A stretch of 64,000 bases of DNA from Gigantopelta aegis (taxonomy: Eukaryota > Mollusca > Gastropoda > Neomphalida > Peltospiridae), in contig NC_054707.1 of assembly GCF_016097555.1 (NCBI RefSeq), forward strand, positions 47,023,692 to 47,087,691, written 5' to 3'. This document shows, one piece after another, positions 9,066 to 62,998 of the stretch; position 1 is the first letter of the stretch; every line of letters begins with the position of its first letter. The notes under the pieces were generated by a model. That model saw only the letters and a list, made by a program, of their open reading frames with translations, did no database searches and was not told where the DNA came from. The position numbers were made by a program, and so were the translations under genes.

Positions 9066-12000
9066 GAAAATACATACATAGGGTTTACATAGTCAAATAC
9101 ACTATCCTGAGTTTGCTGCCATTGTAAGCTGTTTTCGACTCACGGCGACTAAAATGATGCATTACACACAATATATATATATTAGTTTTATGTATAGTTC
9201 ATGTGTGCTGATATTTGTAGGAGTCACTGTTGATTTTCTTCCTAATACATACATAGGGTTTACATAGTCAAATACACTATCCTGAGTTTGCTGCCATTGT
9301 AAGCTGTTTTCGACTCACGGCGACTAAAATGATGCATTACACACAATATATATATATTAGTTTTATGTATAGTTCATGTGTGCTGATATTTGTAGGAGTC
9401 ACTGTTGATTTTCTTCCTAATACATACATAGGGTTTACATAGTCAAATACACTATCCTGAGTTTGCTGCCATTGTAAGCTGTTTTCGACTCACGGCGACT
9501 AAAATGATGCATTACACACAATATATATATATTAGTTTTATGTATAGTTCATGTGTGCTGATATTTGTAGGAGTCACTGTTGATTTTCTTCCTAATACAT
9601 ACATAGGGTTTACATAGTCAAATACACTATCCTGAGTTTGCTGCCATTGTAAGCTGTTTTCGACTCACGGCGACTAAAATGATGCATTACACACAATATA
9701 TATATATTAGTTTTATGTATAGTTCATGTGTGCTGATATTTGTAGGAGTCACTGTTGATTTTCTTCCTAATACATACATAGGGTTTACATAGTCAAATAC
9801 ACTATCCTGAGTTTGCTGCCATTGTAAGCTGTTTTCGACTCACGGCGACTAAAATGATGTTTTATGTATAGTTCATTACACACAATATATATTTACATAG
9901 TCAAATACACTATCCTGTTTTATGTATAGTTTTTCATGTGTGCTGATATTTGTAGTAGTCACTGTTGATTTTCTTCCTAATACATACATAGGGTTTACAT
10001 AGTCAAATACACTATCCTGAGTTTGCTGCCATTGTAAGCTGTTTTCGACTCACGGCGACTAAAATGATGCATTACACACAATATATATATATTAGTTTTA
10101 TGTATAGTTCATGTGTGCTGATATTTGTAGGAGTCACTGTTGATTTTCTTCCTAATACATACATAGGGTTTACATAGTCAAATACACTATCCTGAGTTTG
10201 CTGCCATTGTAAGCTGTTTTCGACTCACGGCGACTAAAATGATGCATTACACACAATATATATATATTAGTTTTATGTATAGTTCATGTGTGCTGATATT
10301 TGTAGGAGTCACTGTTGATTTTCTTCCTAATACATACATAGGGTTTACATAGTCAAATACACTATCCTGAGTTTGCTGCCATTGTAAGCTGTTTTCGACT
10401 CACGGCGACTAAAATGATGCATTACACACAATATATATATATTAGTTTTATGTATAGTTCATGTGTGCTGATATTTGTAGGAGTCACTGTTGATTTTCTT
10501 CCTAATACATACATAGGGTTTACATAGTCAAATACACTATCCTGAGTTTGCTGCCATTGTAAGCTGTTTTCGACTCACGGCGACTAAAATGATGCATTAC
10601 ACACAATATATATATATTAGTTTTATGTATAGTTCATGTGTGCTGATATTTGTAGGAGTCACTGTTGATTTTCTTCCTAATACATACATAGGGTTTACAT
10701 AGTCAAATACACTATCCTGAGTTTGCTGCCATTGTAAGCTGTTTTCGACTCACGGCGACTAAAATGATGCATTACACACAATATATATATATTAGTTTTA
10801 TGTATAGTTCATGTGTGCTGATATTTGTAGGAGTCACTGTTGATTTTCTTCCTAATACATACATAGGGTTTACATAGTCAAATACACTATCCTGAGTTTG
10901 CTGCCATTGTAAGCTGTTTTCGACTCACGGCGACTAAAATGATGCATTACACACAATATATATATTAGTTTTATGTATAGTTCATGTGTGCTGATATTTG
11001 TAGGAGTCACTGTTGATTTTCTTCCTAATACATACATAGGGTTTACATAGTCAAATACACTATCCTGAGTTTGCTGCCATTGTAAGCTGTTTTCGACTCA
11101 CGGCGACTAAAATGATGCATTACACACAATATATATATATTAGTTTTATGTATAGTTCATGTGTGCTGATATTTGTAGGAGTCACTGTTGATTTTCTTCC
11201 TAATACATACATAGGGTTTACATAGTCAAATACACTATCCTGAGTTTGCTGCCATTGTAAGCTGTTTTCGACTCACGGCGACTAAAATGATGCATTACAC
11301 ACAATATATATATATTAGTTTTATGTATAGTTCATGTGTGCTGATATTTGTAGGAGTCACTGTTGATTTTCTTCCTAATACATACATAGGGTTTACATAG
11401 TCAAATACACTATCCTGAGTTTGCTGCCATTGTAAGCTGTTTTCGACTCACGGCGACTAAAATGATGCATTACACACAATATATATATATTAGTTTTATG
11501 TATAGTTCATGTGTGCTGATATTTGTAGGAGTCACTGTTGATTTTCTTCCTAATACATACATAGGGTTTACATAGTCAAATACACTATCCTGAGTTTGCT
11601 GCCATTGTAAGCTGTTTTCGACTCACGGCGACTAAAATGATGCATTACACACAATATATATATATTAGTTTTATGTATAGTTCATGTGTGCTGATATTTG
11701 TAGGAGTCACTGTTGATTTTCTTCCTAATACATACATAGGGTTTACATAGTCAAATACACTATCCTGAGTTTGCTGCCATTGTAAGCTGTTTTCGACTCA
11801 CGGCGACTAAAATGATGCATTACACACAATATATATATATTAGTTTTATGTATAGTTCATGTGTGCTGATATTTGTAGGAGTCACTGTTGATTTTCTTCC
11901 TAATACATACATAGGGTTTACATAGTCAAATACACTATCCTGAGTTTGCTGCCATTGTAAGCTGTTTTCGACTCACGGCGACTAAAATGATGCATTACAC

Positions 12001-13292
12001 ACAATATATATTAGTTTTATGTATAGTTCATGTGTGCTGATATTTGTAGGAGTCACTGTTGATTTTCTTCCTAATACATACATAGGGTTTACATAGTCAA
12101 ATACACTATCCTGAGTTTGCTGCCATTGTAAGCTGTTTTCGACTCACGGCGACTAAAATGATGCATTACACACAATATATATATATTAGTTTTATGTATA
12201 GTTCATGTGTGCTGATATTTGTAGTAGTCACTGTTGATTTTCTTCCTAATACATACATAGGGTTTACATAGTCAAATACACTATCCTGAGTTTGCTGCCA
12301 TTGTAAGCTGTTTTCGACTCACGGCGACTAAAATGATGCATTACACACAATATATATATATTAGTTTTATGTATAGTTCATGTGTGCTGATATTTGTAGG
12401 AGTCACTGTTGATTTTCTTCCTAATACATACATAGGGTTTACATAGTCAAATACACTATCCTGAGTTTGCTGCCATTGTAAGCTGTTTTCGACTCACGGC
12501 GACTAAAATGATGCATTACACACAATATATATATATTAGTTTTATGTATAGTTCATGTGTGCTGATATTTGTAGGAGTCACTGTTGATTTTCTTCCTAAT
12601 ACATACATAGGGTTTACATAGTCAAATACACTATCCTGAGTTTGCTGCCATTGTAAGCTGTTTTCGACTCACGGCGACTAAAATGATGCATTACACACAA
12701 TATATATATATTAGTTTTATGTATAGTTCATGTGTGCTGATATTTGTAGGAGTCACTGTTGATTTTCTTCCTAATACATACATAGGGTTTACATAGTCAA
12801 ATACACTATCCTGAGTTTGCTGCCATTGTAAGCTGTTTTCGACTCACGGCGACTAAAATGATGCATTACACACAATATATATATATTAGTTTTATGTATA
12901 GTTCATGTGTGCTGATATTTGTAGGAGTCACTGTTGATTTTCTTCCTAATACATACATAGGGTTTACATAGTCAAATACACTATCCTGAGTTTGCTGCCA
13001 TTGTAAGCTGTTTTCGACTCACGGCGACTAAAATGATGCATTACACACAATATATATTAGTTTTATGTATAGTTCATGTGTGCTGATATTTGTAGGAGTC
13101 ACTGTTGATTTTCTTCCTAATACATACATAGGGTTTACATAGTCAAATACACTATCCTGAGTTTGCTGCCATTGTAAGCTGTTTTCGACTCACGGCGACT
13201 AAAATGATGCATTACACACAATATATATTAGTTTTATGTATAGTTCATGTGTGCTGATATTTGTAGGAGTCACTGTTGATTTTCTTCCTAAT
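9066..13292 (+). repeat. 175-bp satellite array, about 24 units
   Basis: Head-to-tail units with a 175-bp period (starts at 9241, 9416, 9591 and so on), nearly identical apart from AT-microsatellite length changes that shorten some units by 2-4 bp. One scrambled unit lies at about 9857-9960. Each unit contains 'actatcctgagtttgctgcc', 'gtaagctgttttcgactc' and 'cgactaaaatgatgc', which align with the left end of the TTAA MITE family (ACATTCCTGAGTTTGCTGC, GTAAGATGTTTTCGACT). The near-identity implies recent amplification or homogenisation. Confidence 0.97.
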
Positions 13293-13495
13293 ATGATTTT
13301 TTTTTCGTACGTACGAAATTAAAATCTGGTTTGGTCTACTACAAACATCAGGACAACAAACACCTTGTTTATACAGATACTATAAAAAACCATATATTTA
13401 TCATGTAATTTTAATCATCGAAAAGGAAATGTTAGTTGTAAACATTTTACAATATGACGTTAGTGGCCGAAAACTGAGGATAGTGTCTTTAATGA
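13293..13495 (+). mobile_element. Right half of the MITE carrying the satellite
   Basis: Immediately after the last unit come the MITE landmarks in order: 'tcgtacgtacgaaatt', 'tacagatactat', an 'attttaatcat' stretch and a terminal 'aaactgaggatagtgtc', which is inverted relative to the array's 'acactatcctgagttt'. The array therefore sits where the left half of the MITE should be. Confidence 0.7.
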
Positions 13496-19039: not shown

Positions 19040-22000
19040 ACAGTTAAATAAAAACACAGTGTAAAGGACCGTGTAAAAATCTTTTCGAATTTCTTTCAGA
19101 TGGGTACACTCCACCAAAATGTGTCGCACAGTCAGAAGACACTGACAGTGCTCACACTGAGATGGAGGATCTTTCTTTAAGATAAATGAATGGGTTAAAT
19201 ATATATGCCCGATGCGGGAACGACACAAGACTATTTCATCCTTCCTGCACTGTCTATAGGAGGACTGCCACTCTCCCAAGACTGGCTTGATAGCATGAAG
19301 CTTGTTCGCAACCTCACCGTCCCAATCGAAAAGATAAATTTGTTAATACCATATTTAAAATCAGTATACGGTACACCAACCCTGGCATGAGGCAAATCCA
19401 AAGCAGACTTGGCAGCTAAATCTGCCTTTTCATTACCCCTGATGCCAACATGGCTGGGTACCCAACAAAATACAATGTCTTTATTAGCAATAGATAAAAA
19501 GACACACTTTCGTATCACCATCCCAATTAAGGGATGGTCCAGCTTCATATTACGTAAAGCTTGGAGACACGAAAGTGAGTCAGTAAAAATAATAAATTTG
19601 GATGCACTAGAATCCTTTATTTCTTCTAAGGCTTTAATGACTGCCCAAACTTCAGCACTAAAGATCGATGCTGAGTCAGGCAGTCGCATGGAAAGTATTG
19701 TGTCTGATGGAAACACTGTAGCACAAGCCACAGAATTCCCATCCCGTGATCCATCTGTATACACAGGAATGTAATCACGGTACTTGTCCTGAATTTCCAT
19801 GAAAAACTGTTTGTACACAACAGCATCTGTACGATCTTTCTTTAGATGCGAATGATGAAACACAATTTTAGGTGGAGTAATACACCAAGGTGGTAAAACA
19901 AAATATGAAGGAGTTTCCAAAGTGTCAGTTAAATCAATGTTGGAAAGCAACAAAATACGCTTAATGCGAAGACCAAATGTACGAATAGCATCTAGCCTTG
20001 CATCAAACAACTTCATATATTTGTTGTCAAACACCGCATCATGTGTTGGATGTGTTGGTAATGATTTAATCTTGGCAGCATACTGCAGAGAAAACTTGGC
20101 ACGTCTAGCACCCAAACAAGGTTCGTGTGCATCAACGTACAGGCTCTCTACAGGAGATAGTCCCTGATTGTGTATAGGATCTAGCATCTGCAAGTAAGAC
20201 TTGCGTGCCGACCCATACACAATGCATCCATAATCTAGTTTTGATCTGACTAAAGATCTATACAGACGGAGCATAACCTTTCGGTCTGCTCCCCAATAAC
20301 TTTTAAATATTAAGAGCTTTTAAGCCCTTCTTTTTTACATATTTAAGATGGGGCACAAAAGATAGTTTCCTGTCAAATATCACCCCCAGAAATTTAGTCT
20401 CCTCCACAACTGGAATTGGATTTTTGTCCAAAAACAACTGTGGATCTAAGTGAAAACCTCTTTTCTGGCAGATATGCATACAAACCGTTTTTGCCTTTCA
20501 GAATCTAAAGCCATTGTCAGTTGCCAATTGATGAAGTTTATTCAAACAAAGCTGCAACTTACGTTCAATGATACTCATATTGGACTATCTGTAAGAAATC
20601 TGAAAATCATCGACATATAACGAGCAATCCACACCAGGTGTTAAACACTGGGAGATGCTGTTAATTTTCACAGAAAATAAAGTTACAGACAGGATACTAC
20701 CTTGAGGCACACCCATCTCCTGTGGGTGAATGTCGGACAATGTCGACCCCACCCGAACTTTAAAAGATCTATCTTTTAAAAATTGTGAAATAAAAACTGG
20801 AAGTCGACCTCTCAGGCCCATGCCATGGAGGTCGTTTAAAATCCCATACTTCCACGTGGTATCGTAAGCTTTCTCCAAATCAAAAAACACTGAAACCAAG
20901 TGCTGATTATGGATGAAAGCTTCCCTACAAAACGGTTTAGTCTAGATCTGAACCCACACTGCACGTTAGTAAGCAATTTGTGGGATTCAAGATACCAGAC
21001 AAGTCTACGATTGATCATTCGTTCCATGGTTTTACAAATGCAACTTGTCAAAGCGATAGGGCGATAACTAGTAGGATTGGTTGGATCCTTACCAGGCTTG
21101 GGAATAGGAATAGTAATAGCTTTCCTCCAATCAGAAGGAAAGTCTCCAGAAATCCAGATGTTATTAAAAGTATTCAACAGAACCATCAAAGATGATTCAG
21201 GTAAATGTTTCAATAACTGATAATGAATTTCATCCGGTCCTACTGAAGTATCATGGGCTCGACGAAGAGCATCCTGCAATTCCTCCATAGAGAAATGCCT
21301 GTTGTATACTTCAGCATTTTCGGATGAAAAATTAATGGACTGCTTTTCAGCTTTAGTTCGGACAGATGTAAAAGCATCTGTACTGAAAGCAGAAGATGAA
21401 TTACGAGAAACGTTATCTGCCAATGCATTGGCAATGTCACGATGAGACGCGACATCCGTGTCATTGACAGACAAATGATGAACTGTATTACTGGATTCTT
21501 TACCTTTGATTTTACGGATCCTATTCCAGACAGATTTTACTGATGTTTGTGAATTCAACTTGGAGATAAAAGTTCTCCAAGGTGATTTCTTACTCTGTCT
21601 AATCTCTCTGCGAGCGTTAGCCCTAGCAATACGAAATGCATCCAGGTTGTCTGCTGTAGGTTCACGTTTGAACCGCTCAAGCAACCTGTTTCGCTCTTTG
21701 AATGCATCTTTGCACGTATCATTAAACCATGGTTTATTGAAACGCTTTGGCACTGCCGAAGTCTTAGGAATAGTTTCATCTGCAATGTCCTTCAAGATGG
21801 AAGTGAACAAAGACATGGGAGCATCAGTAATGGCAAATTGTTGCAGACGAGTGCTGCACAGATGCTGAAACTGACCCCAATTTGCCTTCGCCAACTTCCA
21901 TCTTTGAACCCTTTCAAGTGATGGTGGTCCATCATTCCCCAAAATAATGGGAAAGTGGTCACTACCACAAAGGTCTGAACCAACTTTCCAGGAGAAATTA

Positions 22001-33896: not shown

Positions 33897-36800
33897 CGCA
33901 TGTAGATTTTAGTCTACTTCTTCTTGTCACGGTGGCAACAGGCTTTGGCCCCCACAATTATAGACACTGAAACTGTAAACAATCATATTTAAAACATATT
34001 TATTACCCCAGCGGTCACTCATAATAGGAAAATTATTTTCCATATTTTTTCAGTGAGAAATATTCTGCATTGGTCTAACTAACAATACTATTGGACAATT
34101 TGACGCTTACAAACCAATGACTTTGTCGGTACTACATATGACGTCATCACGATTTGACGTCATGTAGTTTAAAGAGTTTGGCTTTACGGGTCTCTGTTTT
34201 TGGTGTTAAATTAATAACAAAATGTCATTTTAATGCAATTCATTATAGATTTAAAGAGAACTTGTGGGTTTTTTTAATTATCTATGAACGTGATTAAATT
34301 ACAACGTTATAGTAATTCTCAGAACAGTGCGTAAAGTGGTTTACATCGTTCCTATAGGGCCAGTGCGCGTGACGTCACCACTTTTGCGATCCGCCATTTT
34401 GGAGGACAAGCTTTGAGCACAAGCTTTGTGCATTGTTGTATACGTTGTTGTTGTTTTGTAATATACTTAAAATGGTAAACTTCTGTGGGGTTTTTGGTTG
34501 CGGAAACCGTGCGGGCAGAGACTGTGCATTTTCCTTCTTCAGACTTCCAACAGTTCGTTTGTCACAAGGAGAACAGACCCACGAATTGTCAGACGAACGG
34601 AGACGAGTGTGGCTTTCGAACATTGGACGGGTCGATATAAAACCATGAAGTTACCCATATTTTCGCATCTGTTCTTTGCATTTTATAAATGGTGAGTTAA
34701 CATTTTATTAATTTCTACCTAATCCAAACTATGTCAGTATATGTCTGTGTGTCTCTCTCTCTCTCTATCCCTCTCTCTATCTTCTCTATCTTCTCTCTCC
34801 CTCTTCTCTCTCTCTCTCTATCTATCTCTATCTTCTCTCTCTCTCTCTCTCTGGGAGAGCTTGCATTATAATATTGGGGTGCATACATTGTATGAAATGT
34901 TGACATTTAGATTTACAAGATTTAGTAGTAAAATGTAGGCCTAGTAAATAAAGACATTTAGTAAATAATTAAAAATAATAATAAAAAACCAAAAACCACA
35001 TTTAAACCTGTCCAAACAAAGTTGTTTATTATTTATATCATTTGCACTGGTATTTTACAATTCATACTACATAAACTCGCATGCACACTAGTTGTTTTAT
35101 ACTTATTAACATTTGATTAAAATTTAATATAAATTAATTTTTTTTTTTTACAGTAAGTGATTGTAATAGGCCTTGTATTGCTTTTTGATGTAGATATTAA
35201 TATATTAAATTTGTTTTATCATTTTAAGTTATAATTCTCTTGTGTTATGCAGGTAAACCTTCAGCCCTTTATGACAAGACTAATCCAGATTGGGCACCAA
35301 CATTACATCTTGGTCATGATAAATTTAAATTGACCACAGGAAAAGAAAATTCTTCTCGACATGAACGGATCATTGGCCGCACCACAAAACGGAAAAGGAC
35401 TGAAGCAGCTCAGTCCCTACTATCTCTCCAAGACGTGATAGTTGAAGACCAGTCCACCGAAGTTGAACCATCTGACGACACCACTACAAAGGAAAGCCAA
35501 ACATCAACTACTGGTGATCAACTTGTGTCAATGGAAGAGGAAATGAGAAGACTCACAGTTGAAAATATTGATTTGAAATGTGAGTTGGCTTCCATGAAAC
35601 TAACTGAAGAAGGGTTGAAAGGCAATGATGAGAAAGTTAACTTTATGACTGGACTGCCAACTCATCACATTCTAATGCAACTTCTGGAATACATTTCAAT
35701 ACATCAAAATGTCACACCCAGATCAGCATTATCTGGATTTCAACAGCTATTGCTTACACTGATGAAACTTAGGTTAAATGTTACAAATGTACTTTTAGGG
35801 TTTATTTTTAATATTGATAAGACAACAGTCTCAAGAACCTTTTTAAATACAATTGATATTTTACATGTTATGCTTCAACCACTTATCAATTGGCCAGGAC
35901 GTGATGAATTGAAGAAGACAATGCCTATGGAATTCCGTCGTTACTTAGAATCTAAAGTTGTTGTCATAATAGACTGTTTTGAGGTTTTCATTGACACACC
36001 TTCCAATCTGGAGGCAAGGGCCCTTACTTGGTCAACATACAAGCACCACAATACTGTTAAATTTCTTATTGGAATTACACCACAGGGAACAGTTTCCTTC
36101 ATTTCAAGAGCCTGGGGTGGTCGAGTCAGTGATAAGTTCTTGACTGAACACTGTGGATTTCTCAATAAACTTCTGCCTGGTGATGTTATTTTAGCTGACA
36201 GAGGATTCGACATCGCTGATAGTGTTGGACTTATGATGGCAACTATAAAAATGCCCGCATTCACTAAAGGGAAAACTCAGATGCCTGCATTGGAACTGGA
36301 AAAATCACGTAAAATTGCCCATCTTCGAATTCATGTAGAGCGTGTTATTGGATTGTCGAGGCAGAAATACACTTTACTTGCTGAAACTCTTCCAATAGAT
36401 TATTTGATTGTCAAGGATGGTAAAGATGTTACCACTGTCGACAAAATTGCTGTTGTTTGCTGTGCTTTAATTAATTTGAATGGGCCGATTGTTCCATCTG
36501 ATTAAAAACACTTGCTTTACCACAATTTGGAATCCTGCAAAAACCTATTCAACTGCAGCCATACTTATTTGGTGTACATGTACATTTCTGCTATAACAGT
36601 TAACAAATGTTTACATGTATGTGAAGCAACAAGATGTGTGACCTAAATGTACATGTTGTACTCCACAAAACCTATCCTGAACATCTTTATAAAAAAAAGC
36701 ATATTACAAATATTGAGGCTATAACTCTAGTTATCAGCAGTGAGACAGTATTTAGAAATTAAATGTGGACAAAACCAAAACATGTCTGTAGTTTTTCATT

Positions 36801-39800
36801 AATATTGAAATCCAAGCTACACTGATGAGTCCTGGAGGGACGAAACATGTTTCTCTGTTAAAGACACACAAGTGTTCTATCGAGTTAACTGAAATAATAT
36901 GGTGAGAACATCTATTAGTACATGTATGAGCCACAGACTAAAAAAAAAAATGTGGCACACTTGGGAAAGAAACATGATATTCTAATCCAAATGACTCCCC
37001 ATTGTTCAGCTATATATATAGCTAATTTTTTCTCTTTAACACCAATGGGAGGGGGGGGGGGGGGGGGGGGGGATTGTTTTATTTAACAATACTCTCAACA
37101 CATTTTACTTGTGATTATACTGGCATTGATGTACGGTATTGTTAAAATAAAATATTTTATGTGAACTTTCCCATAGACAGGACACTACATACCTCAGTCA
37201 ACTAAATAAAACTTTACTACAAATTTAGCATTTTTGTGTTTAAATTTGTATAATTTATTTTCTCCAGATTAACAAATGGTCAGTTATACTTTATTCATGA
37301 ATATCAATAAATGAAATACATGTGTATATTTAAATGTTTAGTAGTTTGGAATTTAATACATATAGTATGTACATTGGTCATCTATCTACATGTTTCTATC
37401 AGTTAATTGTTCATACTGCACATCATCAGTTTGTGTGACCCAAGTGTCCTGACCTTACTTATAAGTAAACTTTTTAAATGTTCAATGGCCAATTTGTGTC
37501 TAGCATATGGTTATTTCAACACTATGTCAAAACAGCTACAGTGAATACTTTGCCACTACATAAGTTAAAAACATGTTTCGTCCCTCCAGGACTCTTCAGT
37601 GTAGCTTGGATTTCCATATTAATGGAAAACTACAGACATGTTTTGGTTTTGTCCACATATAATGTTATTAATGTTAACATTTCAGTTTAATAATGTTATT
37701 TCTGTTATCCCTTTATCATTCATGATTTTCTCCTTGTTCATTATCGCTTCACCATTCTTGATTTCCTCCTGTCTTTTCTGCATTCAGGGCAGTACCACTT
37801 GCCTTTAGGTTCTGTCAATATACCTACACACCCATAGTGGAACCAATGAATGGGGCAGTTCTGACCGTCGCAAGCAACCATGTCTCCAAATTCTTCCTTT
37901 TTGCAGAAACACCACACTTCGGCAATCTCAGCTTGAGGGCTTGCTTTCTTTTGCTGATTTGTGTGGTCAAGTAGAGGCATCCGTGAATAATATTTCGCAA
38001 GCAACTCTGGCAGAATTCCAACTTGAAAAATGAATAGAACTGCTTGTGTAGTATCTGGCCAGAATGTCTCCTCTTTGTAAATCCTTTCGCAGTGATAGGA
38101 TTTGGTTGTCCAGAGATAAAAGTCTCCATACGTTCGTCCACAAACAAACAGCTGACACTGAACTTGGTAAAAGTATTCATGTTTTCTGTCCAACATCCAT
38201 TTACCTTCCTCATTAAAAACCAAACACATTTCTTCAGATTTAACATTTTGAAGATCTCTGTCTCTGATGAGATACGGGCATTTTATTTCTAAGCAACCAT
38301 CACCACAACAGTCACAGGTGACACATCCATCGGGTGATGCTCCAATCTGTGGGTGCTCCTCACTAATGACAAAACCAGAATCTCTCATCTTGAAGTTGAC
38401 ATGTTTCATTTTCATCAGCTCCAAGTACTGCTCCTTTGCTTTTCTTTCCTTTAACAGACCCCATCGTGTTGCTGGTGTATTTACATTTTTTTTCTCGGGA
38501 TAGCAAATATCCTTAATCAAGCTGGGAGATGGCTGTGAAGGATCAGTTTTACAAACCTTTCGGAATTTTGATGCAGTTATGCGCCCCGCTCGATAACGCT
38601 GCCACAGTCGGGAATTTGATTGACCCCTAGTTGCCATTTCTGTGGCTTCAATCTGCTCCCTTGTAGCACTGATGTTAACTGAAGTACATTTTTGCAAAAT
38701 GATGTTATACGGTTGCATATAAAGTTCTTCTTGGAACATGTCAGAAAGAACATCTGGAAAAATATTTTGAGCCTGTTGAGGAATGAAGTGATCATTGAAC
38801 GGTTCTATAACTGATAAGACAGCAGGTTTTACCCTACCAATACTAAGTCCCTGCAGGAACTTGTCCAATCTGTTAGCACTTGGAGCAGGTATTTCCTTAG
38901 GCTGGCGAATACGACATGCAACAGGCGTCCCAGTTGCAATTGAATGGTCCAAATTCAAGCGTTTGGTCTGGGCTGATGTGAAGTCAATCTCGCCGACTGG
39001 TCGATACTTTATGTCTTTCAGTGCAGACGGTAAAAGCCAATAGGCCGGCTCTTGGGTGACAGTCTTCGAATCTCTGATCTTCACAGTTGCATCAATTGCA
39101 AACAGTAGTGTTGCAATGTGTGTGCAAGCCTCACCTAACCCTGCCATACAATCACAGTGTGCTGTGCAGACCATGCCATTCTTCTCCGCAATGACCCAGG
39201 GTTGCAAAGGCTTTTCTCTCAGTCTTTGCGAATGTAACACCTGAAATAATTTGTATTGATAATTTTACTTTATAACTTCAATAAAAAGTATGTTATTAGT
39301 AGCAATAAAAAATATTACAATCATTTACCACATGTTTAAGTTATATTGGTTATAGTTATATATCTGATAAGTAAATTCTTAATAAATTACAGCAAACAGC
39401 ATTTCTTCTAAGTCAAGGTTCATACATGTATATATAACAATGTATTGGTTTGTTTAATCAATAAATGGTATAATATCCGCCTGGTCCCCTCCATTATTAT
39501 TATTAGTTAGGGTTAGGGGTTGGGGTTAGGGTTAGGGGAGGGGGGGACCGGGCGGATATTTTTCCGTACTTATAGTAGTAGTATGTACAGGGCTTTTGAT
39601 TGCACTGAAGTGAAGTACAAATACATATCGTATGCCAAAATTAAGTACAAACATGCTCCTCAAGCCCTACTAAAATATTAACTTAATAATTACTGCACCA
39701 AAAAGTCCTTCTTATGCTTAAACAAAGTCCCCAAATTAGTGACACTTAAAGCCCTGGTATATCTCTATAGTATATATATATTATATGAACACGTGACCTA

Positions 39801-40679
39801 CCTTCGCTCGAACAATGTGAAATCCATTCTTAATGCAGACTGCAACGTCACTAATCCATCCAGAGGTCAGCTGGTTAAAAGCATCTAAACTTTTCCATGC
39901 CTTCATGTCGTCCATAGTATAAAAACTTTTTGTAAATATCAAGTAATTTACAATGTCTGGATACAAAACACTCGGAAAGTTTTTCTCACTGTTGGACCAC
40001 TCGAGTTTCGTCACTTCATATGGATCGACATTATTAATAATACTTATTTTGCTTAAATATCGGTCTCTAGATAGACTATCCAGTGTACCAACATAACCTG
40101 GTTTAGGCACGGGTAATGATTTTAGTTGTTTAGACATAATAACATCAATTTTCTACTTCGCTGAACACTAACAATGATAATACTTCTTTTGTTTGTCCTC
40201 CAAAATGGCTGCCGGGACTTGCGTACACAGAAACTGTGACGTCATCGCACACACTCTATACAGGTTGGCCTTCGTGCATGTGCGTCGAAAATAAAGGCTT
40301 TTAGAGAAAAAATAGCTGAGGTAATAAATAGAATAACAAACTCGGTACCAGTTATTATCAAATTTATGCCCCTTGTTAAGATGTTGCCGACTAAATTATA
40401 CTTTCATGACTATAATTGGATATTATATGTTTCAAATATCAGTGTCGTCATCTATTCTGTATTCAATGTGGATTTGATCATTCTAACTCCATTTCCACGG
40501 ACAGTCAAGTAAATATGATGGGCGATTACCTACAAAAATGGGCCTAGCCTACATATGATTGAAAAGATTAAAAGATGTAGTTTAAAAAAAAGTTAACATT
40601 CATATGAAATATTAAGTGCTACAATATACAAATTCGATTACTTACCGATAAGAATAGTCACAATCTTGACGAAATTCAT
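33897..40679 (-). CDS. Putative secreted micropeptide gene, copy B
   Basis: Exon 1 (40679-40646) encodes [11 protein letters not shown], phase 1, donor GTAAGT. Exon 2 (33972-33897) follows acceptor TTTACAG, encodes [18 protein letters not shown], stops at 33916-33914, and ends at a conserved 'aacag' donor-like site. The predicted mature part after the AKA site is CCHRDKKK, with two Cys. The 6.7-kb intron contains the whole ISL2EU transposon; without it the intron would be about 0.8 kb, close to copy A. The ATG abuts the foldback element at 40680. Confidence 0.5.
34361..34409 (+). repeat. ISL2EU left terminal inverted repeat
   Basis: Contains the palindrome GTGACGTCAC and GCCATTTTGGAGGACAA; pairs with 40193-40254 in inverted orientation. 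Confidence 0.75.
34472..36505 (+). pseudogene. ISL2EU transposase (THAP + DDE), one nonsense codon
   Basis: Exon 1 (34472-34691) starts [20 protein letters not shown], the C-x4-C start of a THAP zinc finger, and ends ...[11 protein letters not shown] with the C-x2-H pair. Exon 2 (35253-36505) joins in phase to give GKPSALYD, then a coiled region, a helix-turn-helix ([11 protein letters not shown]) and a DDE_Tnp_4 catalytic core with D in [10 protein letters not shown] in ILADRGFD and E in RIHVERVIG. The THAP binds the element ends and the DDE core does the cutting. TGA at 34646-34648 interrupts the THAP, so this copy should be inactive unless read through or assembled wrongly. Confidence 0.9.
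34741..34857. repeat. CT-rich microsatellite in the transposase intron
   Basis: About 115 bp of imperfect (CT)n/(TCTCTAT)n. It provides a pyrimidine tract but lies 400 bp from the acceptor. Confidence 0.9.
36778..36852 (+). ncRNA. Type III hammerhead ribozyme, copy 1
   Basis: All core parts are present in order. Stem III 5' strand AAACATG leads to cleavage triplet GTC (cut predicted after 36786). Stem I pairs TGTAGT with GCTACA and has an upper helix and loop. Core CTGATGA is at 36822-36828. Stem II is GTCC/GGAC. GAAA is at 36842-36845, followed by stem III 3' strand CATGTTT. Stem III makes 8 pairs including the required U-A. It lies 273 bp downstream of the transposase stop, in sense orientation. 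Confidence 0.88.
37568..37644 (-). ncRNA. Type III hammerhead ribozyme, copy 2
   Basis: Minus-strand counterpart of 36778-36852 with the same order of parts: AAAACATG, GTC (cut after the base at 37635), TGTAG/CTACA, CTGAAGA, GTCC/GGAC, GAAA, CATGTTTT. The only core difference is position 7 (A for U), which is variable in natural hammerheads. The stem I upper helix is better paired than in copy 1 (CC/GG). It lies about 97 bp downstream of the YqaJ gene's stop, in sense. Confidence 0.88.
37741..40137 (-). CDS. SWIM-YqaJ exonuclease-PHD protein of ISL2EU
   Basis: Exon 1 (40137-39802) starts [20 protein letters not shown] and ends RAK before GTAGGT. Exon 2 (39240-37741) follows 'ttatttcag' and starts [13 protein letters not shown], in phase. 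A SWIM zinc finger ([13 protein letters not shown]) precedes a YqaJ-type PD-(D/E)XK nuclease: [27 protein letters not shown]-like [12 protein letters not shown]-terminal PHD finger follows ([20 protein letters not shown] ... WFHYGC ... WYCPEC). The frame is open throughout, about 611 residues. In ISL2EU elements this second gene accompanies the transposase. Its precise role in transposition is unproven; end processing is inferred. Confidence 0.93.
39472..39562. repeat. Hairpin with telomere-like GGGTTA repeats
   Basis: Inverted arms AATATCCGCCTGGTCCCC and GGGGACCGGGCGGATATT enclose ATT repeats and five degenerate GGGTTA units. Within the intron of the YqaJ gene. A G-quadruplex on one strand is plausible. 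Confidence 0.75.
40365..40525 (+). mobile_element. Decayed TTAA MITE half
   Basis: 'gttaagatgttgccgacta' followed by 'caaatatcagtgtcgtcat' and 'attctaactcc' matches one arm of the MITE family at low identity. No ends remain. Confidence 0.45.
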
Positions 40680-41341
40680 TTTGACGAACCAAATTGTTAA
40701 CAACTACGAAAAATTACTCTCCTACCTTTAATTGCCGTTAAATTTCCTCCAAACTTTGTCCAGACACAAATCTTGAAAAAGCCATTACAATGACACAGAT
40801 TCCACATACCAGATAATAACCATGTCACCTATATCGACTTCGCTAAGAGTGCATAAGGGAAAAAAGCATGTAATTTTGTATCGGCTGCCATTTTGACTTT
40901 TTATGGAATATTCTTCAAGAGGGGTGAAAGGATAGGACTTAATATAACAACATCATAACATGTTATGATATAAAAGCAAACGTGATGACGTCATATTATT
41001 ATTATTTTTTATTATTATTACTATTATTATTATTTTAATGATACCACTAGAGATCATCGATTTCATAGTAATTGTGTCACATACTTTGGAGGCTTTCACC
41101 CCTCTTGAAGAGTATTCCATAAACAAGCAACATGGCAGACGGCAGAAAACTGCATGTATTTTTCCCTATGCAATCTCAGCAAAGACGATATCAGCGACAT
41201 CGTTAGTCTCGTGTGTGGGGAATCTGTATACTTGTAGTGGGTTTTTTGCGATTTGTGTCTGGACAAACTTTGGAGGAAATGTAACGGCAATTAAAGGTAG
41301 GAGAGTAATTTTTTGTAGTTGTTAACAATTTGGTTCGGACA
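40680..41341. mobile_element. Foldback element, copy 1
   Basis: Inverted arms of about 245 bp (40686-40928 and 41092-41335) around an ATT-rich spacer. Ends contain GGTTCGGACA. Each arm reads, outward, an ATG (MAADTKLHAF or MADGRKLHVF) and later a splice-donor-like AAAGGTAGGAG, so it resembles a captured, inverted first exon. Micropeptide gene B begins immediately left of it, and gene C starts 400 bp to the right in the opposite direction. Confidence 0.7.
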
Positions 41342-41653
41342 ATAGCTTCTTACTGCTTTCTACTATATAGTCACGCTACTCGTTTTTATACCCAAAAATA
41401 CAAGGACATATAACCCGCTTTAGTTAGTGCATTAAGTGCGATTGTCAGTTTAAAAAATACATCATAATACTTTGTTTATGAAGTGGAAGGTTTCTTTCAT
41501 AGTTGTGAGAGAGATAAATAAAATATATATATCACGAATCTACACCTCCCATTTTATAGACAGAACAAAAATGATTTATTTAACCATTTCCTATCAACTA
41601 AGCGGAAAAGGAAGTCGCCGCACTTGAAATATTTTAATTTCCTTGTATTTTGT

Positions 41654-44700: not shown

Positions 44701-45300
44701 GCAAGATGATTGGGGCGGTGCGGTTCGGTTGCGAACAAGCTTCATTCTCCTATAGGCGGTGCTGGAAGGATGAATTAGTCGTGTGCCGTGCCGGCATTCA
44801 TGAAGGAATGGATATTTAAAAGGACATTTCTGATTAAACTTACATATTAAATATATTTTCTTGTTTAGAATATCAGTGTGTGTATGGTCGTATTAATATT
44901 TGTAAGAAGTCCAAAATGGATTTTGTTTTCAAATAATTTCGTACGTACGAAAAAAATATATTTGAGGAAATGAAATGAAATTTAACCTATTGTCCGAACA
45001 AAATTGTTAACAACTACGAAAAATTACTCTCTTACCTTTAATTGCCGTTAGGTTTCCTCCAAAGTCTGTCCAGACAGAAATCTTGAAAAAACCATTACAA
45101 TGACACAGAATCAGATGATATCTATGTCTCCTATATCGACTTCGCCGAGAGCGCATAGGGAAAAAGCATGTAATTTTGTATCAGCTGCCATTTTGACTTT
45201 TTATGGAATATTCTTCAAGAGGTGTGAAAGGATAGGACTTAATCTAACAACGTTATGATATAAAAGCAAACGCGATGACGTCATATTATTATTATTATTA

Positions 45301-45332
<32 letters not shown>

Positions 45333-46865
45333 GATACCACATTAATTGTGTCAAATACTTTGGAGGCTTTCACCCCTCTTGAAGAGCATTCCATAAAAAA
45401 GCAACATGGCAGAAAACTGCATGTATTTTTCCCTATGCAATCTCAGCAAAGACGATATCGGCGACACGTTGCAGTCTCGTGTGTGGGGAATCTGTATATT
45501 TGTAGTGGGTTTTTTTGCGATTTCTGTGTGGACAAACTTTGGAGGAAATCCAACGGCAATTAAAGGTAGGAGAGTAATTTTTCGTAGTTAAGAATTTGGT
45601 TCGGACACTAGTACAACGATCAAAAACACGTTTAATATACAGCCACTAATATATTTGATATGTAATTACATTCGTCGAAACGTCTGTTAGTCAATAACAT
45701 CTAAAAAAAAAAAAAAAATTGCAGCAAACTCAGGAATGTCCCTTTAACATAAACATATAAGTACCATTTGTGACATCGAATAGCCGATGTGTATTTGTTG
45801 TGCTGCGGTGTCATTAAACATTCATTCATTCACTCCAGTTAACGAGACATAATATATTCGGCAACAGAAATGTTTTTGGAATCTTTAAATTCCACCCAGA
45901 ATTAATTTTAAAGTTAAATTAAAAAACCACTGATTTTTATACAAAGTTTTCACATATACTTCCCTTGATTTGTGTATTGTATTATACTTTTAAGTGGTTT
46001 TATATAATTATATAAATAATATTTTCATATACTTACCATTTGTGACAACCAGTAGACGATGTGTATTTTTGTGTTGGGGTGTCGTTAAACACTCCTTCTT
46101 TCATTAATTATTTTTTGCATTTGCCATAGTTTGATACCCAATAGCCGATGTATTTTTCGTGCTGTGGTGTTAAACATTCAAACAGGTTCATTGTTGTTGG
46201 TTGGGACATTTTGTTTTGTTTTGGGTTGGGGTTTTATATATGGAATATGGAATAAGTACTTGTAGTCAAAATAAGATATGGCGATGATAACGTATGAATA
46301 TATTATTAAACAGTTTCAGTGTCCATGATTGCGGGAGCCAAAGCCTGCTGCTGCTGCCATCGGGACAAGAAGAAGTAACGATCGAAATCATAGGTCTATT
46401 ACAAACGGGTAACCAAATTTTCATGAAACTAATCTTTCTAGCCTTCTCACGCACGAACACCCAGATTTCGTAACTTTCACGTGAAATTAATGTCTTCCGT
46501 TTCCATCTGTTATGCAATTTTATGATTTTTATAAAATCTTGTTCAGAAAAGGAAAATAGCAGTCATTACTACTGGTTATTATTTCACTAAATGTGATAGG
46601 AAAGAGCTCCATTTTCTGCTGTCTGCTCCCACCCACCCGTCTGTTCTGTAGTTTTGTGATTTTCGAATTGACACCAAAACATGAAAGATGCACAACAAAT
46701 TAAGCACATGTACAGAACTGTTTCTCTTGTTTTTCAGCTACAAGTCGAAAATATTGCCATGCCTAACTGAAGATGAACGACAAGAATCCTATTATAAATG
46801 TTTTATAAGCAGTAATGATACATTTGATAATTTTATACTTTGAAATAAATGTCTGTCAAGTGTGT
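41742..46865 (+). CDS. Putative secreted micropeptide gene, copy C
   Basis: Exon 1 (41742-41775) encodes [11 protein letters not shown], ends phase 1 at GTAAGT. Exon 2 (46314-46408) follows 'ttattaaacag', encodes [20 protein letters not shown] and stops at 46376-46378; a donor-like GTAACC lies 30 bp later. A strong acceptor (TTTCTCTTGTTTTTCAG) at 46737 and AATAAA at 46844-46849 suggest a non-coding third exon. The cleaved product would be [10 protein letters not shown]. The 4.5-kb intron is packed with transposons. No known homologue; function unknown. Confidence 0.55.
41948..42289 (+). mobile_element. TTAA MITE, left end missing
   Basis: Body and right end of the family ('gcagcaaactcgggaatgtc'), with TTAA at the right. 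The left 50 bp are absent. Confidence 0.85.
42842..43798. mobile_element. DNA element with 20-bp terminal inverted repeats
   Basis: TGTCCGGTGTATCGGCGCAC at 42842-42861 is repeated perfectly inverted at 43779-43798. A third, imperfect copy (GCGCCGAATCACCGGACA) lies inside near 43599. Flanks show no clear target duplication. Superfamily not recognised. Confidence 0.7.
43088..43456 (+). CDS. Unknown ORF inside the TIR element
   Basis: An open frame of up to 122 codons, Lys-rich at first, then NENFTPSLTVIPIKKHKSEI and later CVHNLPEKNQINVGILAMHD and VCFCSIVPL. The second half looks more protein-like than random AT-rich DNA. It is the only long frame within the 957-bp element, so it may be a relic of its transposase. 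No motif recognised. Confidence 0.25.
   Translation: MILIKNVKTSLKTPFPHFKNYSKQYKCNYFCSVIFLFKPKKKTGKCKPNENFTPSLTVIPIKKHKSEIRSTCVHNLPEKNQINVGILAMHDNEHVCFCSIVPLKKTIPKLIMRWVICDRSFS
43945..44080. repeat. Small palindromic element
   Basis: ACTGATTTTACGAAACTCG near 43978 is mirrored by CGTTTCGTAAAATCAGT near 44044, with further pairing outward (ATTATTACACG / CTCGTATAATAAT). A short MITE-like hairpin of about 130 bp. Confidence 0.7.
44095..44235 (+). mobile_element. SINE fragment, second family
   Basis: 'tataaaagaccccttgcta' and 'gacatccaatagccgacg' identify the 3' half of the second SINE family. Confidence 0.65.
44305..44815 (+). mobile_element. Scrambled LINE C-terminal fragments
   Basis: Pieces of the RNase H-distal and zinc-finger region in mixed order: CEHCRLL-like codons at 44325, then 'ctggcaagatcactgggaag', then repeats of the 'gcggtgcaggaaggatga' segment at 44500 and 44757. 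Product of repeated insertion and deletion. Confidence 0.6.
44818..45748 (-). mobile_element. TTAA MITE split by the foldback element
   Basis: MITE halves at 44818-44985 and 45613-45748 in minus orientation join to the family consensus when the foldback copy is removed. This shows the foldback sequence is mobile. Confidence 0.8.
44986..45612. mobile_element. Foldback element, copy 2
   Basis: Inverted arms 44986-45230 and 45360-45612 with ends TTGTCCGAAC and GTTCGGACA inserted into a MITE at CTAG, duplicating TA (or CTA). The right arm has an intact frame MAENCMYFSLCNLSKDDIGD, then a hydrophobic VWGICIFVVGFFAISVW, then a donor-like AAAGGTAGGAG, so it could be a captured membrane-protein first exon. 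The spacer has a T26 run. Confidence 0.75.
45749..46175 (+). mobile_element. LINE 3' ends (two nested tails)
   Basis: A tail ending 'gtcattaaacattcattcat' at about 45820 is followed by a type A 3' UTR to about 46105 and a type B end at about 46120-46175. Several 5'-truncated insertions stacked at ATTC tails. Confidence 0.75.
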
Positions 46866-47029: not shown

Positions 47030-49313
47030 AGTTATGCTCCATCTCAACGTGACATCGCCAATGCACTGGCAGACAACTTTTCTCACAACTCCTCTTCTGC
47101 TTTCAGCTCAGATGCTTTTACATCTGTCCGTACTAAAGCTGAAAAGCAACCTATTAATTTTTCATCTGAGAATGCTGAAGTATACAACAGGCCCTTCTCT
47201 TCGGAGGAGTTGCAGGATGCTCTTCGAAAAGCCCATGATACTTCGGTGGGACCAGATGAAATACATTACCAACTACTAAAACACTTACCCAAATCTTCTC
47301 TTGTAGTTCTTTTGAACATCTTTAATAAAATCTGGAGTTCTGGTGACTTTCCTTCTGATTGGAGGAAGGCTATTATAATTCCTATTCCAAAGCCTGGCAA
47401 GGATCCTACTGACCCTACCAGTTACCGCCCTCACAAGCTGCATCTGCAAAACTATGGAACGAATGATCAGTCGTAGACTTGTCTGGTTTCTCGAGTCCCA
47501 CAAATTGCTTACTAACGTGCAATGTGGGTTCAGATCCAGTCGAGGTACGGTTGATCATCTCGTTCGTTTTGAAACGTTTTGTCGCGAGGCCTTCGTCAAT
47601 AATCAACACCTGGTTTCTGTGTTCTTTGATTTGGAAAAGGCCTACGATACCACATGGAAGTATGGGATTTTAAAAGACCTCCATGGCATGGGCCTAAGAG
47701 GTCTTCTTCCAAATTTTATTTCTAACTTTTTAAAAGATAGAATTTTTAAAGTGCGAGTGGGATCCACGTTTTCAGATTCCCACTCACAAGACATGGGGGT
47801 GCCCCAAGGTAGCATCCTGTCGGTTACCCTATTCTTAATTAAAATTAACAGCATCGCCCAGTGTTTAAAACCTGGTGTCGATTGCTCACTATACGTTGAC
47901 GATTTTCAGATTTGTTACAGGTCGTCCAATATGAGTATCATTGAGCGTCAGTTGCAGCTTTGTTTGAATAAGCTTCAACAATGGACAACTGACAATGGCT
48001 TTCGATTCTCAAAGTCAAAAACGGTCTGTATGCACTTCTGCCAGAAAAGAGGTCACCGCCTAGACCCTCAGCTGTTTCTGGACAAAAGCCCGATTACCGT
48101 GGTCGAGGAGACCAAATTTCTGGGAATTATATTTGACAGGAAGCTATCTTTCATACCTCATTTAAAATATGTTAAAAAGAAAGGGCTAAAGGCCCTAAAT
48201 ATTCTCAAAGTTATTGCCAGCACAGAGTGGGTAGCAGACCGTAAAGGTTATGCTCCGACCTTTGATTAGATCTAAACTAGATTACGGCTCTATTGTGTAT
48301 GGGTCGGCACGCAAGACTTACTTGCAGATGCTTGATCCCATACACAACCAGGGACTTGTTCTGAAAGAACATCTCCTGTGGAAAGTTTGTACGTCGATGC
48401 ACACGAACCTAGTTTGGGTGCTAGACGTGCAAAGCTGTCTCTGCAGTATGCTACCAAGATAAAGTCAATGCCAAAACACCCCACCCATAACGCTATCTTT
48501 GACAACCGATTTATGAACTTGTTTGATGCGAAGCCAAATGCAATCTGCACATTTGGTCTTCGCATTAGGCAGCTTTTATCTGCTTCCAACATTGATCTTT
48601 CAGACATTTTGGAAACACCTTCATATTTTGTTTTGCCACCTTGGTGCATAAAACCACCTAAAATTGTGTTGGATCTCGTGCATCTGAAGAAAGATCGCAC
48701 AGATCCAATTATTTATAACCAATATTTTATGGAAATAAAAGAGAAATACTGTGACTACATCCCTATTTACACGGATGGGTCACGGGATGGGAATTCTGTG
48801 GCTTGTGCCACAGTTTTTCCATGAGACAAAATAATCTCTATGAGATTGCCTGATTTGGCATCTATATTTAGTGCCGAAACTTGGGCAATTATTAAAGCCC
48901 TAGAGAAAATCAAAAACTCTAGCTCCTCTAAATTTATAATCTATACCGACTCACTTTCGTGTCTCCAGTCTTTACAATATATGAAGCTGGAACATCCCTT
49001 AATTGGGATGCTGATACGAAAGTGTGTCTTTTTATCTATTAACAATAAGAATATTGTGTTTTGTTGGGTACCCAGCTATGTTGGCATTAGAGGCAATGAA
49101 AGGGCAGATTGTGCTGCCAAGTCTGCTTTGACTTTGCCACGTGCCAATGCTGGTATTCCCTATAGTGATCTCAAACATCACATAAATAATTATATCTTTT
49201 CTACTTGGCAAGATGATTGGAACGGTGCGGTTGCGAACAAGCTTCATTCTGTTAAGCCAGTCCTCCTATAGGCGGTGCAGAAGGGATGAAATAGTTTTGT
49301 GTCGTGCTCGCAT
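47030..49313 (+). mobile_element. LINE copy, RT to RNase H (5'-truncated)
   Basis: From RHDIANALADN through RT and RNase H. RT motifs include PKPGKDPTDPTSYRP, FFDLEKAYDTTWKYG, PQGSILSVTLF and YVDD (near 47897). RNase H includes YTDGSRDGN and VPSYVGIRGNERAD, where the usual His of VPSH is Tyr. One open frame covers 47454-48269. It is interrupted at 49314 by a short ribozyme element and resumes at 49628. Confidence 0.93.
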
Positions 49314-60376: not shown

Positions 60377-62035
60377 ATGGAGCTAAATTGGGATTGCTGT
60401 GTGATTTGCCAGCAACACACTGCTGAACCCTTGAAGTGTCCCTTGCAGAGTCCTGGAACAAGAGATGACAAGGCAGATGCCTACACATCATTTCTGACCA
60501 ACGTAGAACAGTTCCGGGCCATTGGTGCTCTTCCAGCTGAACTCTATTTTGAGAGTGATGAAACTGCTGACAATTTTGTTTCTCATTCTGCTTCCTAGCA
60601 CAAATCTTGCCATTTGAAATTCAATAATTCTAAGTTGGCAAAGGCAAATCACTAGACGTTCAAAAGTGTTTCTTCTGTGGGAAAGGCGAAGAGGAAAATG
60701 TTCTCCATGAAGTTTCAACATTTGATGCCGACAAAAATATCCGGGTCATGATCGGAGAGCTAAACAACACCCTGCTTATGACTAGAATAGTTGGAGCAGA
60801 TCTAATTGCAATCGATACAAAATACCATCTGACATGTTTGGTCAACCTGAGAAATCGCTACCGTAGTCACACTCGTAAGGCAGGCGAAACACCTGAAAAA
60901 ACCAGATGAGAAAATGAACGAGTCTCGGGCATTTGTAGAACTGACCAGCTACATTGAGAAATCTGTAGATTCAGGAACTCTCCTCTTCAAGCTGAATGAG
61001 ATTCACTATCTGTATGTGAATCGTCTTGAGGAACTGGGCATCAAGAAACTAGTCAACAAGACCAGACTGAAGGGTCATTTGATAGAACGCTTCCCAGAGG
61101 CACAAGAACAGTATGATGGGAGAAATACTGTTCTCATTTTCAAGGAAGGCATGAGAAATATGTTGAAGGAAGCTCTGAAGAAGCCGTTATTCTGGCCACA
61201 TCTTCAGCCATCAAGGCTTCAAATTCACTGGTTGCTTCCCGGAAGAATGTCAAGAAGACTCACTAGCCTCAAGTCTCCATGATCTTGAATGGTCCCAACT
61301 TGAAAGATCAAGACAAGCATGACTCCCATCGGCCAGGGCATCGTTTACAATACACAGAAACGAACATCTCCTACTGTTGTGAAGACCAGACACACTTTGG
61401 AGCGTGAGCCACCCCTCGCCATCTACATTGGCATCAATGTGCATACACTGACCAGAAGCAAGAAACTCATCAAGCAGTTATACTACCTAGGCATCAGCAT
61501 TTCTTATGACAGAATTATGGAGATTGAGGACTGGATCGCCACTTCTACCTGTGAACGCTTTGTAGAAGATGGAGTGGTGTCCGACTAGCCTTCGGAAAGG
61601 GTTGTTCACTGTTGGCGCCCTGGACCACAACCCCAGCTCAACCACTTCCCTGACCTCATTCCATGGGACTGGAATCAGCCTTTTCCAGTTGCCTACCAAG
61701 ACCAAACCTGGTGAGAGCAGACCTTCTGGAAATGAAAAGCACACTCTTCCTGACAGCTACGTCTCTGTCCCAGCTGTTGCGGTGTCGGAGTGTGACGTAG
61801 TTCCAGTCGAGAGCTGCTTAGATGAGGAACACAGCTGGGTAGAGCATGCACTGCCACTTCTAGAGACAGAAGAACTCACCAGTGGAGATGCCATTGTATG
61901 GTCTCCAGAGGGAGGCTTTCATGCTCAGCGAGGGCCCCAAAGATGGAGAGACGACATGCAGAAGAAGAGTCCTTTCATGTACTGGGACCTGATCATGAGA
62001 TGTGAAACCCTCATTCTCATCCTCATCAGAGCTCA
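60377..62035 (+). pseudogene. N-terminal half of the long uncharacterised repetitive protein
   Basis: Frames join to MELNWDCCVICQQHTAEPLK (a Cys-pair zinc-binding start), then CFFCGKGEEENVLHEVSTFD, then YHLTCLVNLRNRYRSHTRKA, then LERPEPPLAIYIGI-like and KKLIKQLYYLGISISYDRIM, then NPSSTTSLTSFHGTGISLFQ, and finally YWDLIMRCETLILILIRAH, where a LINE cuts it off at about 62035. I recognise the same kind of very long, multi-copy metazoan protein as at 25988-27560. Stops near 60598 and 60905 and frameshifts near 61190-61370 and 61590 show it is dead. Confidence 0.75.
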
Positions 62036-62998
62036 CATTCCTGTTTACACAGACGGATCACGGGGTGGGAATTCTGTGGCTTGTGCTAGTTTTTCTCTTT
62101 ACTGCTGAAATTTGGGCAATCATTAAAGCCCTGGAACAGATTAAGGATTCATCCAAATATATTATTTTTACAGACTCACTTTCGTGTCTTCAAGCTCTAC
62201 AGTACATGAAATTGGAGCACCCCTTAGTTGGGATGGTGATACGAAAGTGTGTCTTTTTATCAATTGCCAATAAAGATGTTATACTGTGTTGGGTACCCAG
62301 CCATGTTGGCATTAGGGGTAACGAAAAGGCAGATGTTGCTGCCAAGTCTGCTTTGAACTTGCCCCGTGTCCATGTTGGTGTCCCCTACAGTGATTTTAAA
62401 TTTCATATAAAGCAATATATCTTTTCGACTTGGCAAGACGATTGGGACGGTGCGATTGCGAACAAGCTTCATTCTGTCAAAGCAGTCCTGGGGGAGTGGC
62501 AGTCATCCTACTGGCGATGCAGGAAGGATGAAGTAGTCTTGTGCCGTGCCCGCATCGGCCATACGTATTTGACGCATTCATTTATTTTAAAGAAGGACCC
62601 TCCTCCTCAGTGTGAACACTGTAAGTGTACACTGACTGCGGCACATTTTGGTGGAGTGTGATCATCTCCAGCAGACGAGAAATGATATATTTGGCAACAG
62701 AAATGTTTTGGAATCTTTTAAATTCCACCCAGAATTAATTGTAAAGTTTTTAAAACACTTTGACTTCTATACAAAGTTTTAAAATGTACTCACTTTGACT
62801 TCTATACAAAGTTTTAAAATGTACTTACCTTGATTTTATGTATTGTATTATACTTTTTTCCCCACAGCTCCTTACACTGTGGTTTTACATGAATATATAT
62901 AAATAATATTTCCATATACTTACCATTTGTGACACCCAATAGCCGATATGTATTTTTGTGCTGGGGTGTCGTTAAATAAACATTCATTCATTCTGACG
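62036..62998 (+). mobile_element. LINE RNase H to 3' end
   Basis: Starts HIPVYTDGSRGGNS within RNase H, includes CWVPSHVGIRGNEKADVAAK and the CEHCKCTLTAAHF finger, then a type A 3' UTR with a 50-bp tandem repeat (62757-62830) and an ATTC tail. Confidence 0.9.

Follow-up and report, generated by a model that had tools for sequence, protein, structure and literature searches.

The 64,000-nucleotide stretch of the genome of the deep-sea vent gastropod Gigantopelta aegis considered here (contig NC_054707.1, positions 47,023,692 to 47,087,691; hereafter the window) contains a DNA transposon of the ISL2EU group, the transposase and YqaJ genes of which are convergent (stops at 36505 on the plus strand and 37741 on the minus strand), with a type III hammerhead ribozyme (HHR) on the sense strand downstream of each. 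ISL2EU elements belong to the PHIS superfamily and, in the portions of their published description available to us, are characterized by an AT target-site duplication, a transposase with THAP, HTH, and DDE domains, a YqaJ gene, and terminal repeats that usually begin with GG (PMC4482050). The element in the window is an ISL2EU transposon, as the initial annotation had proposed, having a DDE and HTH transposase, a THAP domain in the protein of a sister copy, the YqaJ gene, terminal inverted repeats, and AT at both ends (Table 1).

Both ribozyme units are type III HHRs, with three stems, a CUGANGA ... GAAA core, an H17 residue, and an open stem III, and cleavage is predicted for each. Residue C17 lies 281 nt past the stop codon on the transposase side and 106 nt past it on the YqaJ side, and the earlier claim of two complete HHRs, arranged tail to tail as paired sense-strand features beyond the stops of the two genes, proved correct in coordinates, strands, and cores. 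A scan of positions 36500-37800 with the Rfam model Hammerhead_3 (RF00008) matched 36779-36851 on the plus strand (45.3 bits, E = 2.1e-8) and 37570-37642 on the minus strand (40.8 bits, E = 4e-7). Because both HHRs score below the RF00008 gathering score of 48.5 bits, which is a curation cut-off and no defining feature of type III HHRs, a scan of the whole window at that threshold returned no match, and none was returned from 20 related loci. The minimum-energy folds of both units show the three stems, with energies that stand out only slightly (equalled or bettered by 15 of 200 and 2 of 200 shuffled sequences, respectively). The two HHRs form one inverted repeat, with arms complementary to 96% over 95 nt, and so do not count as independent. 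The possibility that these 95-nt repeats delimit a nested mobile unit was considered and rejected, there being no duplication visible by eye and the HHRs persisting where nothing else aligns.

Table 1. Positions in the window of the hammerhead pair and of the ISL2EU element that carries it.
Feature	Position	Strand	Details
Transposase-side type III HHR	36778-36852	+	core CTGATGA; predicted cleavage between 36786 and 36787
Stem III of transposase-side HHR	36778-36785/36845-36852	+	
C17 of transposase-side HHR	36786	+	
Stem I of transposase-side HHR	36787-36791/36817-36821	+	
CTGATGA of transposase-side HHR	36822-36828	+	
Stem II of transposase-side HHR	36829-36832/36838-36841	+	
GAA of transposase-side HHR	36842-36844	+	
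Stem I bulge TCC	36811-36813	+	predicted pseudoknot with GGA of loop II, 36834-36836
YqaJ-side type III HHR	37568-37644	-	core CTGAAGA; C17 at 37635; predicted cleavage between 37635 and 37634
Inverted-repeat left arm	36758-36852	+	95 nt; holds transposase-side HHR
Inverted-repeat right arm	37569-37663	-	95 nt
Central zone with AATAAA on both strands, beyond both HHRs	37083-37306		plus strand 37146, 37205, 37306; minus strand 37295, 37259, 37083
ISL2EU element, including AT at each end	34354-40259		about 5.9 kb; alignment with other genomic copies stops at both ends
AT, probable 2-bp target-site duplication	34354-34355 and 40258-40259		ends compared in 4 copies
THAP-domain exon of transposase gene	34472-34690	+	placed by aligning NCBI protein P0001; THAP PF05485 in P0001
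Transposase open reading frame (ORF)	35240-36505	+	HTH_Tnp_4 and DDE_Tnp_4 (Pfam)
YqaJ gene, main exon	37741-39240	-	YqaJ PF09588 (89 bits); Viral_alk_exo match; PHD match slightly below cut-off
YqaJ gene, probable first coding exon	39781-40137	-	ORF kept in other copies; without Pfam match

Within the 1.15 Gb of genome searched, a 91-base query gave 20 matches and the core pattern CTGANGAGNCCTGGN{1,4}GGNNGAAAC gave 99 sites, compared with 0 for the reversed control, which rules out a chance match; HHRs with mutated cores fall outside the 99-site count. The close loci with a transposase-side HHR also hold the YqaJ-side core in every case (8/8, at a distance of 741-792 bp), the YqaJ-side HHR being damaged in one of them (L011; sampled loci are given L numbers). 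The initial annotation had named the absence of the motif from sister copies as the sign of a chance later insertion, and late insertion into one copy is ruled out by these eight loci. At two further loci (L016 and L017), pieces of YqaJ remain with a damaged YqaJ-side HHR only. The sites were also placed relative to two gene lists (the best 99 of 404 and the best 86 of 555 candidates scored), from which 96 of 103 and 75 of 96 matches were used, the remainder being second pieces at places already on the lists. A listed transposase or YqaJ match is found within 4 kb of 45 of the 99 sites: 38 are downstream of, and in sense with, a listed gene (18 transposase, 20 YqaJ), and seven, for which the gene concerned is absent from the list, are convergent with another site as its partner. 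No gene on these lists of best-scoring candidates is near the remaining 54, and all seven of those checked (L050-L055 and L019) fall in deleted or decayed ISL2EU sequence. Of the 20 pairs of sites less than 3.5 kb apart, all but one, which is divergent, show a tail-to-tail arrangement. An RF00008 search of the genome, limited in reach since the pattern gives 99 sites, yielded 0 matches among the best 68 of 126137 candidates. Rfam's type III cut-off misses this group of HHRs, and such ribozymes may therefore be overlooked in other animal genomes. In viral contigs, the HHR pattern gave 0 sites, and a transposase search gave seven stretches, none of which was confirmed.

Four HHR-bearing lineages of ISL2EU can be distinguished: A, to which the element in the window belongs, B/D (B denoting the YqaJ-side and D the transposase-side HHR), C, and E. 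The transposases of the other three lineages are 46-58% identical to that of the window, and their HHRs occupy the same two sites in the same sense. A covariance model matched both sides in 13 of 15 sources of lineages B/D, C, and E, and one side in L031 and L043; its training set comprised nine HHRs from lineages A, B, and C, which match by construction. The HHRs of family E keep the core at the same two sites with different stems, a compact stem I, and no bulge; their own core pattern gives nine sites compared with 0 for its control, and eight of the nine lie 133-376 bp downstream of, and in sense with, a listed gene. Applied to 19 sources that belong to other ISL2EU lineages or are truncated copies, the same covariance model gave 0 matches, and a relaxed Rfam scan of nine HHR-less loci gave ten matches, all far below gathering scores and none a ribozyme. 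The ISL2EU loci L056-L061 and L064-L066 of the same genome have no HHR in the intergenic stretches sampled. Because other lineages in the same genome lack them, the HHRs are a trait of part of ISL2EU. The interpretation in the initial annotation is partly supported: the HHRs recur in sister copies of the element in the window and in three further lineages.

The HHRs have a clustered distribution in the transposase phylogeny. In a 27-row transposase tree, from which L011 (badly broken), L025 (truncated), L018, L019, L037, and L046 were dropped, one branch with support of 93/93 splits the 18 HHR-bearing from the nine HHR-less rows; presence of the HHR needs a single change on this tree, a value as low as which was reached by 0 of 500 label shuffles. 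The pattern fits a single gain or a single loss, in a tree that is unrooted and in which near-copies favor clustering. When the intergenic sequences of six loci of A, B/D, and C were compared, alignments fell on the HHRs, except for one 46-bp match (A 647-692) that resembles a dispersed repeat, and the intergenic sequence of one family E locus aligned with none of these three lineages.

Conservation at these sites can be followed in the pairing of the stems. HHRs fitting two fixed patterns (21 rows from A-D and two from E) were taken for a helix count and gave nine distinct helix rows, in which 132 of 135 stem cells are paired, an upper figure as damaged HHRs were left out, and 11 of 15 pairs have changed on both sides. 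For comparison, pairing was seen in 22 of 108 cells with the partners slid by one place and in 54 of 81 with a slide of two. In the nine-row alignment A3, 99.0% of cells are paired, compared with 33-48% with slid partners, and its covariation score was reached by 0 of 500 shuffles. In all 21 rows of A-D, the bulge of stem I, which reads TCC or CCC, is complementary to the GGA or GGG of loop II, and this contact in A3 (columns 46-48 with 69-71) has UA as its outer pair in five rows and CG in four. The outer pair has changed on both sides even within lineage B, since L018 has UA and both L019 and L039 have CG. The stems have been maintained by compensatory changes, as judged from the 11 pairs changed on both sides, with a weaker indication from A3 alone, in which there are four such pairs.

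The position of the HHRs relative to possible polyadenylation signals was also considered. There is no AATAAA between the transposase stop codon and C17 in the seven copies with a known stop, in which the first AATAAA occurs 66-296 nt past the transposase-side HHR, and none between the YqaJ stop codon and C17 in the four copies with a readable stop; L027 has one that overlaps the stop codon. In DNA as A+T-rich as this, such placement hints that both HHRs would lie in the 3' untranslated region (3' UTR), between stop codon and signal, and it is loosely compatible with the suggestion of the initial annotation that self-cleavage could trim poly(A) tails. The interpretation that we favor, with a probability of slightly more than one half, is that these are cis-acting HHRs of part of ISL2EU, each of which cleaves the mRNA that contains it at a point past the stop codon and ahead of the poly(A) signal. 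The case for it is made by the identity of sequence and structure, position, orientation, related copies, compensatory changes, and the clustered distribution on the tree. On transcription of either gene, the HHR would fold and the mRNA would be cut after C17. The coding 5' fragment would then carry a 2',3'-cyclic phosphate at its end and no longer a poly(A) tail. This would probably lead to less, or briefer, transposase and YqaJ protein, a form of self-restraint in which low or brief protein would suit an element that gains from restraint, and the coding RNAs would end before the stretch where convergent transcripts would overlap.

Several observations weigh against this interpretation. ATTAAA at 36758 precedes the transposase-side HHR of the window, several ISL2EU lineages in the genome do without HHRs, and 41 of 500 shuffles of A3 reach its four pairs with a change on both sides, while all 500 reach its count of pair types. 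Damage to the ribozymes is also frequent. By the scanner used to assess damage, only four of the 13 two-sided sources of B-E keep both HHRs undamaged (L027, L029, L033, and L040), one side being damaged in the other nine, seven times on the YqaJ side (L030, L038, L041, L042, L049, L062, and L063) and twice on the transposase side (L039 and L044), counts that are possibly biased as to side by the finding of copies via the transposase or their selection from gene lists. Two more B-E sources show a single HHR, and in family A the YqaJ-side HHR is damaged in L011, L016, and L017. The sampled deleted copies L051-L055 have a mutated transposase-side core in all five cases (CTGG or TTGG for CTGA), a contrast between the sides that comes partly from their having been picked by an intact YqaJ-side core; YqaJ-side stem III is damaged in L055. 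So many damaged HHRs lower our confidence in cis-acting cleavage and raise it in the possibility that the HHRs are evolutionary leftovers, active in an ancestor and without effect in present elements, to which the mutated cores of the deleted copies also point. Similarly, dN is approximately equal to dS among four transposase copies of family A, an indication of decay that is as expected for copies drifting after insertion. We nevertheless judge the leftover explanation improbable, as at least one HHR is undamaged in 15 of 15 sources of B-E, and the helices, core, and bulge-loop pairing persist at 46-58% transposase identity while other intergenic sequence no longer aligns. Alternatively, the main benefit of cleavage might be insulation and not lower expression, each message being freed from antisense overlap with, or readthrough into, its neighbor, so that less double-stranded RNA would form and small-RNA silencing would be avoided. 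This model would accord with the tail-to-tail arrangement of all but one of the close site pairs and with the location of each HHR between its own gene and the central zone bearing the AATAAA signals of both strands; however, so few two-sided sources of B-E retain both HHRs undamaged, and the two genes, where both are listed, converge in HHR-less lineages as well (e.g., L026 and L028), that we regard it as unlikely, if deserving of serious attention.

Two further explanations were considered. Plant retrozymes contain a pair of type III HHRs and give rise to circular RNAs 600-1000 nt long, and the HHRs of ISL2EU might by analogy excise an RNA that is circularized and spreads. The two HHRs that delimit the RNA unit of a retrozyme have the same direction, whereas those in the window are on opposite strands, so that each transcript would contain one active copy and no RNA unit is excisable; the far sites checked were moreover all ISL2EU-derived. 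An origin as a retrozyme or satellite was rejected on these grounds, and we attach almost no probability to it. Conservation as DNA, in the form of internal inverted repeats bound by transposase and not as RNA, would be in keeping with the extent and complementarity of the inverted repeat in the family of the window, but changes on both sides preserve the RNA helices and the bulge-loop contact, the loop length differs between the two sides in C and B/D, and the stems found at these sites in family E are different. Conservation as DNA only was rejected on the both-side changes that keep RNA pairing and is, in our estimation, very improbable.

In the accessible parts of the papers compared, from which the following statements derive, animal HHRs are placed in Penelope-like elements, Terminons, type I retrozymes, satellites, and the 3' UTRs of Clec2 (PMC7229834; PMC7761336; PMC6431247; PMC6155905). 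The nearest structural counterparts are type III HHRs with a loop-loop pseudoknot, described from deltavirus-like RNAs of a toad and a termite, with similar motifs in the genomes of termite, Drosophila pseudoobscura, and other flies (PMC7936874). These HHRs resemble those of ISL2EU in their open stem III, 5-bp first part of stem I, internal loop, capping hairpin, and animal hosts. The internal loop pairs with loop II in both, through GCCR with YGGC in the former and TCC/CCC with GGA/GGG in the latter, a likeness of the pairing letters, whatever their side of the internal loop. They differ in stem II, which has 6 bp in the former and 4-5 bp in ISL2EU, and in setting, being circular RNA agents or isolated termite motifs without a recognizable ORF within 2 kb, whereas the ISL2EU ribozymes follow both genes of a transposon (PMC7936874). 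Plant long terminal repeat (LTR) retrozymes likewise contain type III HHRs, two per element and several hundred bp apart, but as same-direction repeats that release a circular RNA for retrotransposition, whereas here they are inverted and belong to a coding cut-and-paste element (PMC7229834; PMC7761336). Penelope-like elements, Terminons, and non-LTR retrozymes show that HHRs occur in animal mobile elements, including those of a mussel, as they do here; their HHRs are, however, of type I or minimal and reside in retroelements, in contrast to the type III HHRs of ISL2EU (PMC7229834; PMC7761336; PMC6431247). A comparable placement is seen in mammalian Clec2, where an atypical, discontinuous type III HHR lies in the 3' UTR of a protein gene, but there it has a very large helix I and belongs to a host gene, and here the HHRs belong to a transposon and to both its genes (PMC6155905). 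The terms hammerhead ribozyme and UTR occur 0 times in the ISL2EU description (PMC4482050), and no HHR in a DNA transposon is described in the literature searched, which consisted mainly of titles and abstract openings with few subscription papers and no preprints, so that priority is not proven.

Animal HHRs in these papers, to the extent covered, are linked with retroelements, satellites, a small number of host genes, and circular RNA agents, and here they accompany both genes of a DNA transposon. As a DNA transposon makes no RNA intermediate in need of processing, a function in gene regulation is indicated. Such a function for genomic hammerheads has hitherto been hard to test, and this one genome provides 108 pattern sites, two ribozyme architectures at one position, naturally broken copies, and ribozyme-less sister lineages. 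As a broader proposal, which we judge slightly less likely than not, a clade of cut-and-paste transposons may have retained, since before its divergence to approximately 50% transposase identity, self-cleaving ribozymes by which the 3' ends of its two mRNAs are processed; it would be the first such class II transposon known to us, and the pseudoknotted type III HHRs of deltavirus-like agents might have come from such an animal element.

The inner ends of the element are AGGGCCAGTGCGCGTGACGTCAC and, as reverse complement, AGAGTGTGTGCGATGACGTCAC. AT at both ends and terminal inverted repeats are present in all four copies for which both ends are shown, although 2 bp constitute little evidence. 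After the AT, the terminal repeats start with AGGG and AGAG, and thus lack the GG start that is usual in ISL2EU and is not defining. In the window copy, a TGA at 34646-34648 interrupts the reading frame of the THAP exon. Immediately beyond the right end of the element, an approximately 650-bp repeat with strong inverted-repeat structure occupies 40685-41345, and a further copy lies about 4 kb on, at 44995-45611. Elsewhere in the window, a 175-bp tandem satellite extends from 9069 to 13293 (24 copies, 93% matches), and ORFs that by eye resemble pieces of non-LTR retrotransposon reverse transcriptase/RNase H are located at 19231-21942 on the minus strand and at 47454-48269 and 62002-62661 on the plus strand.

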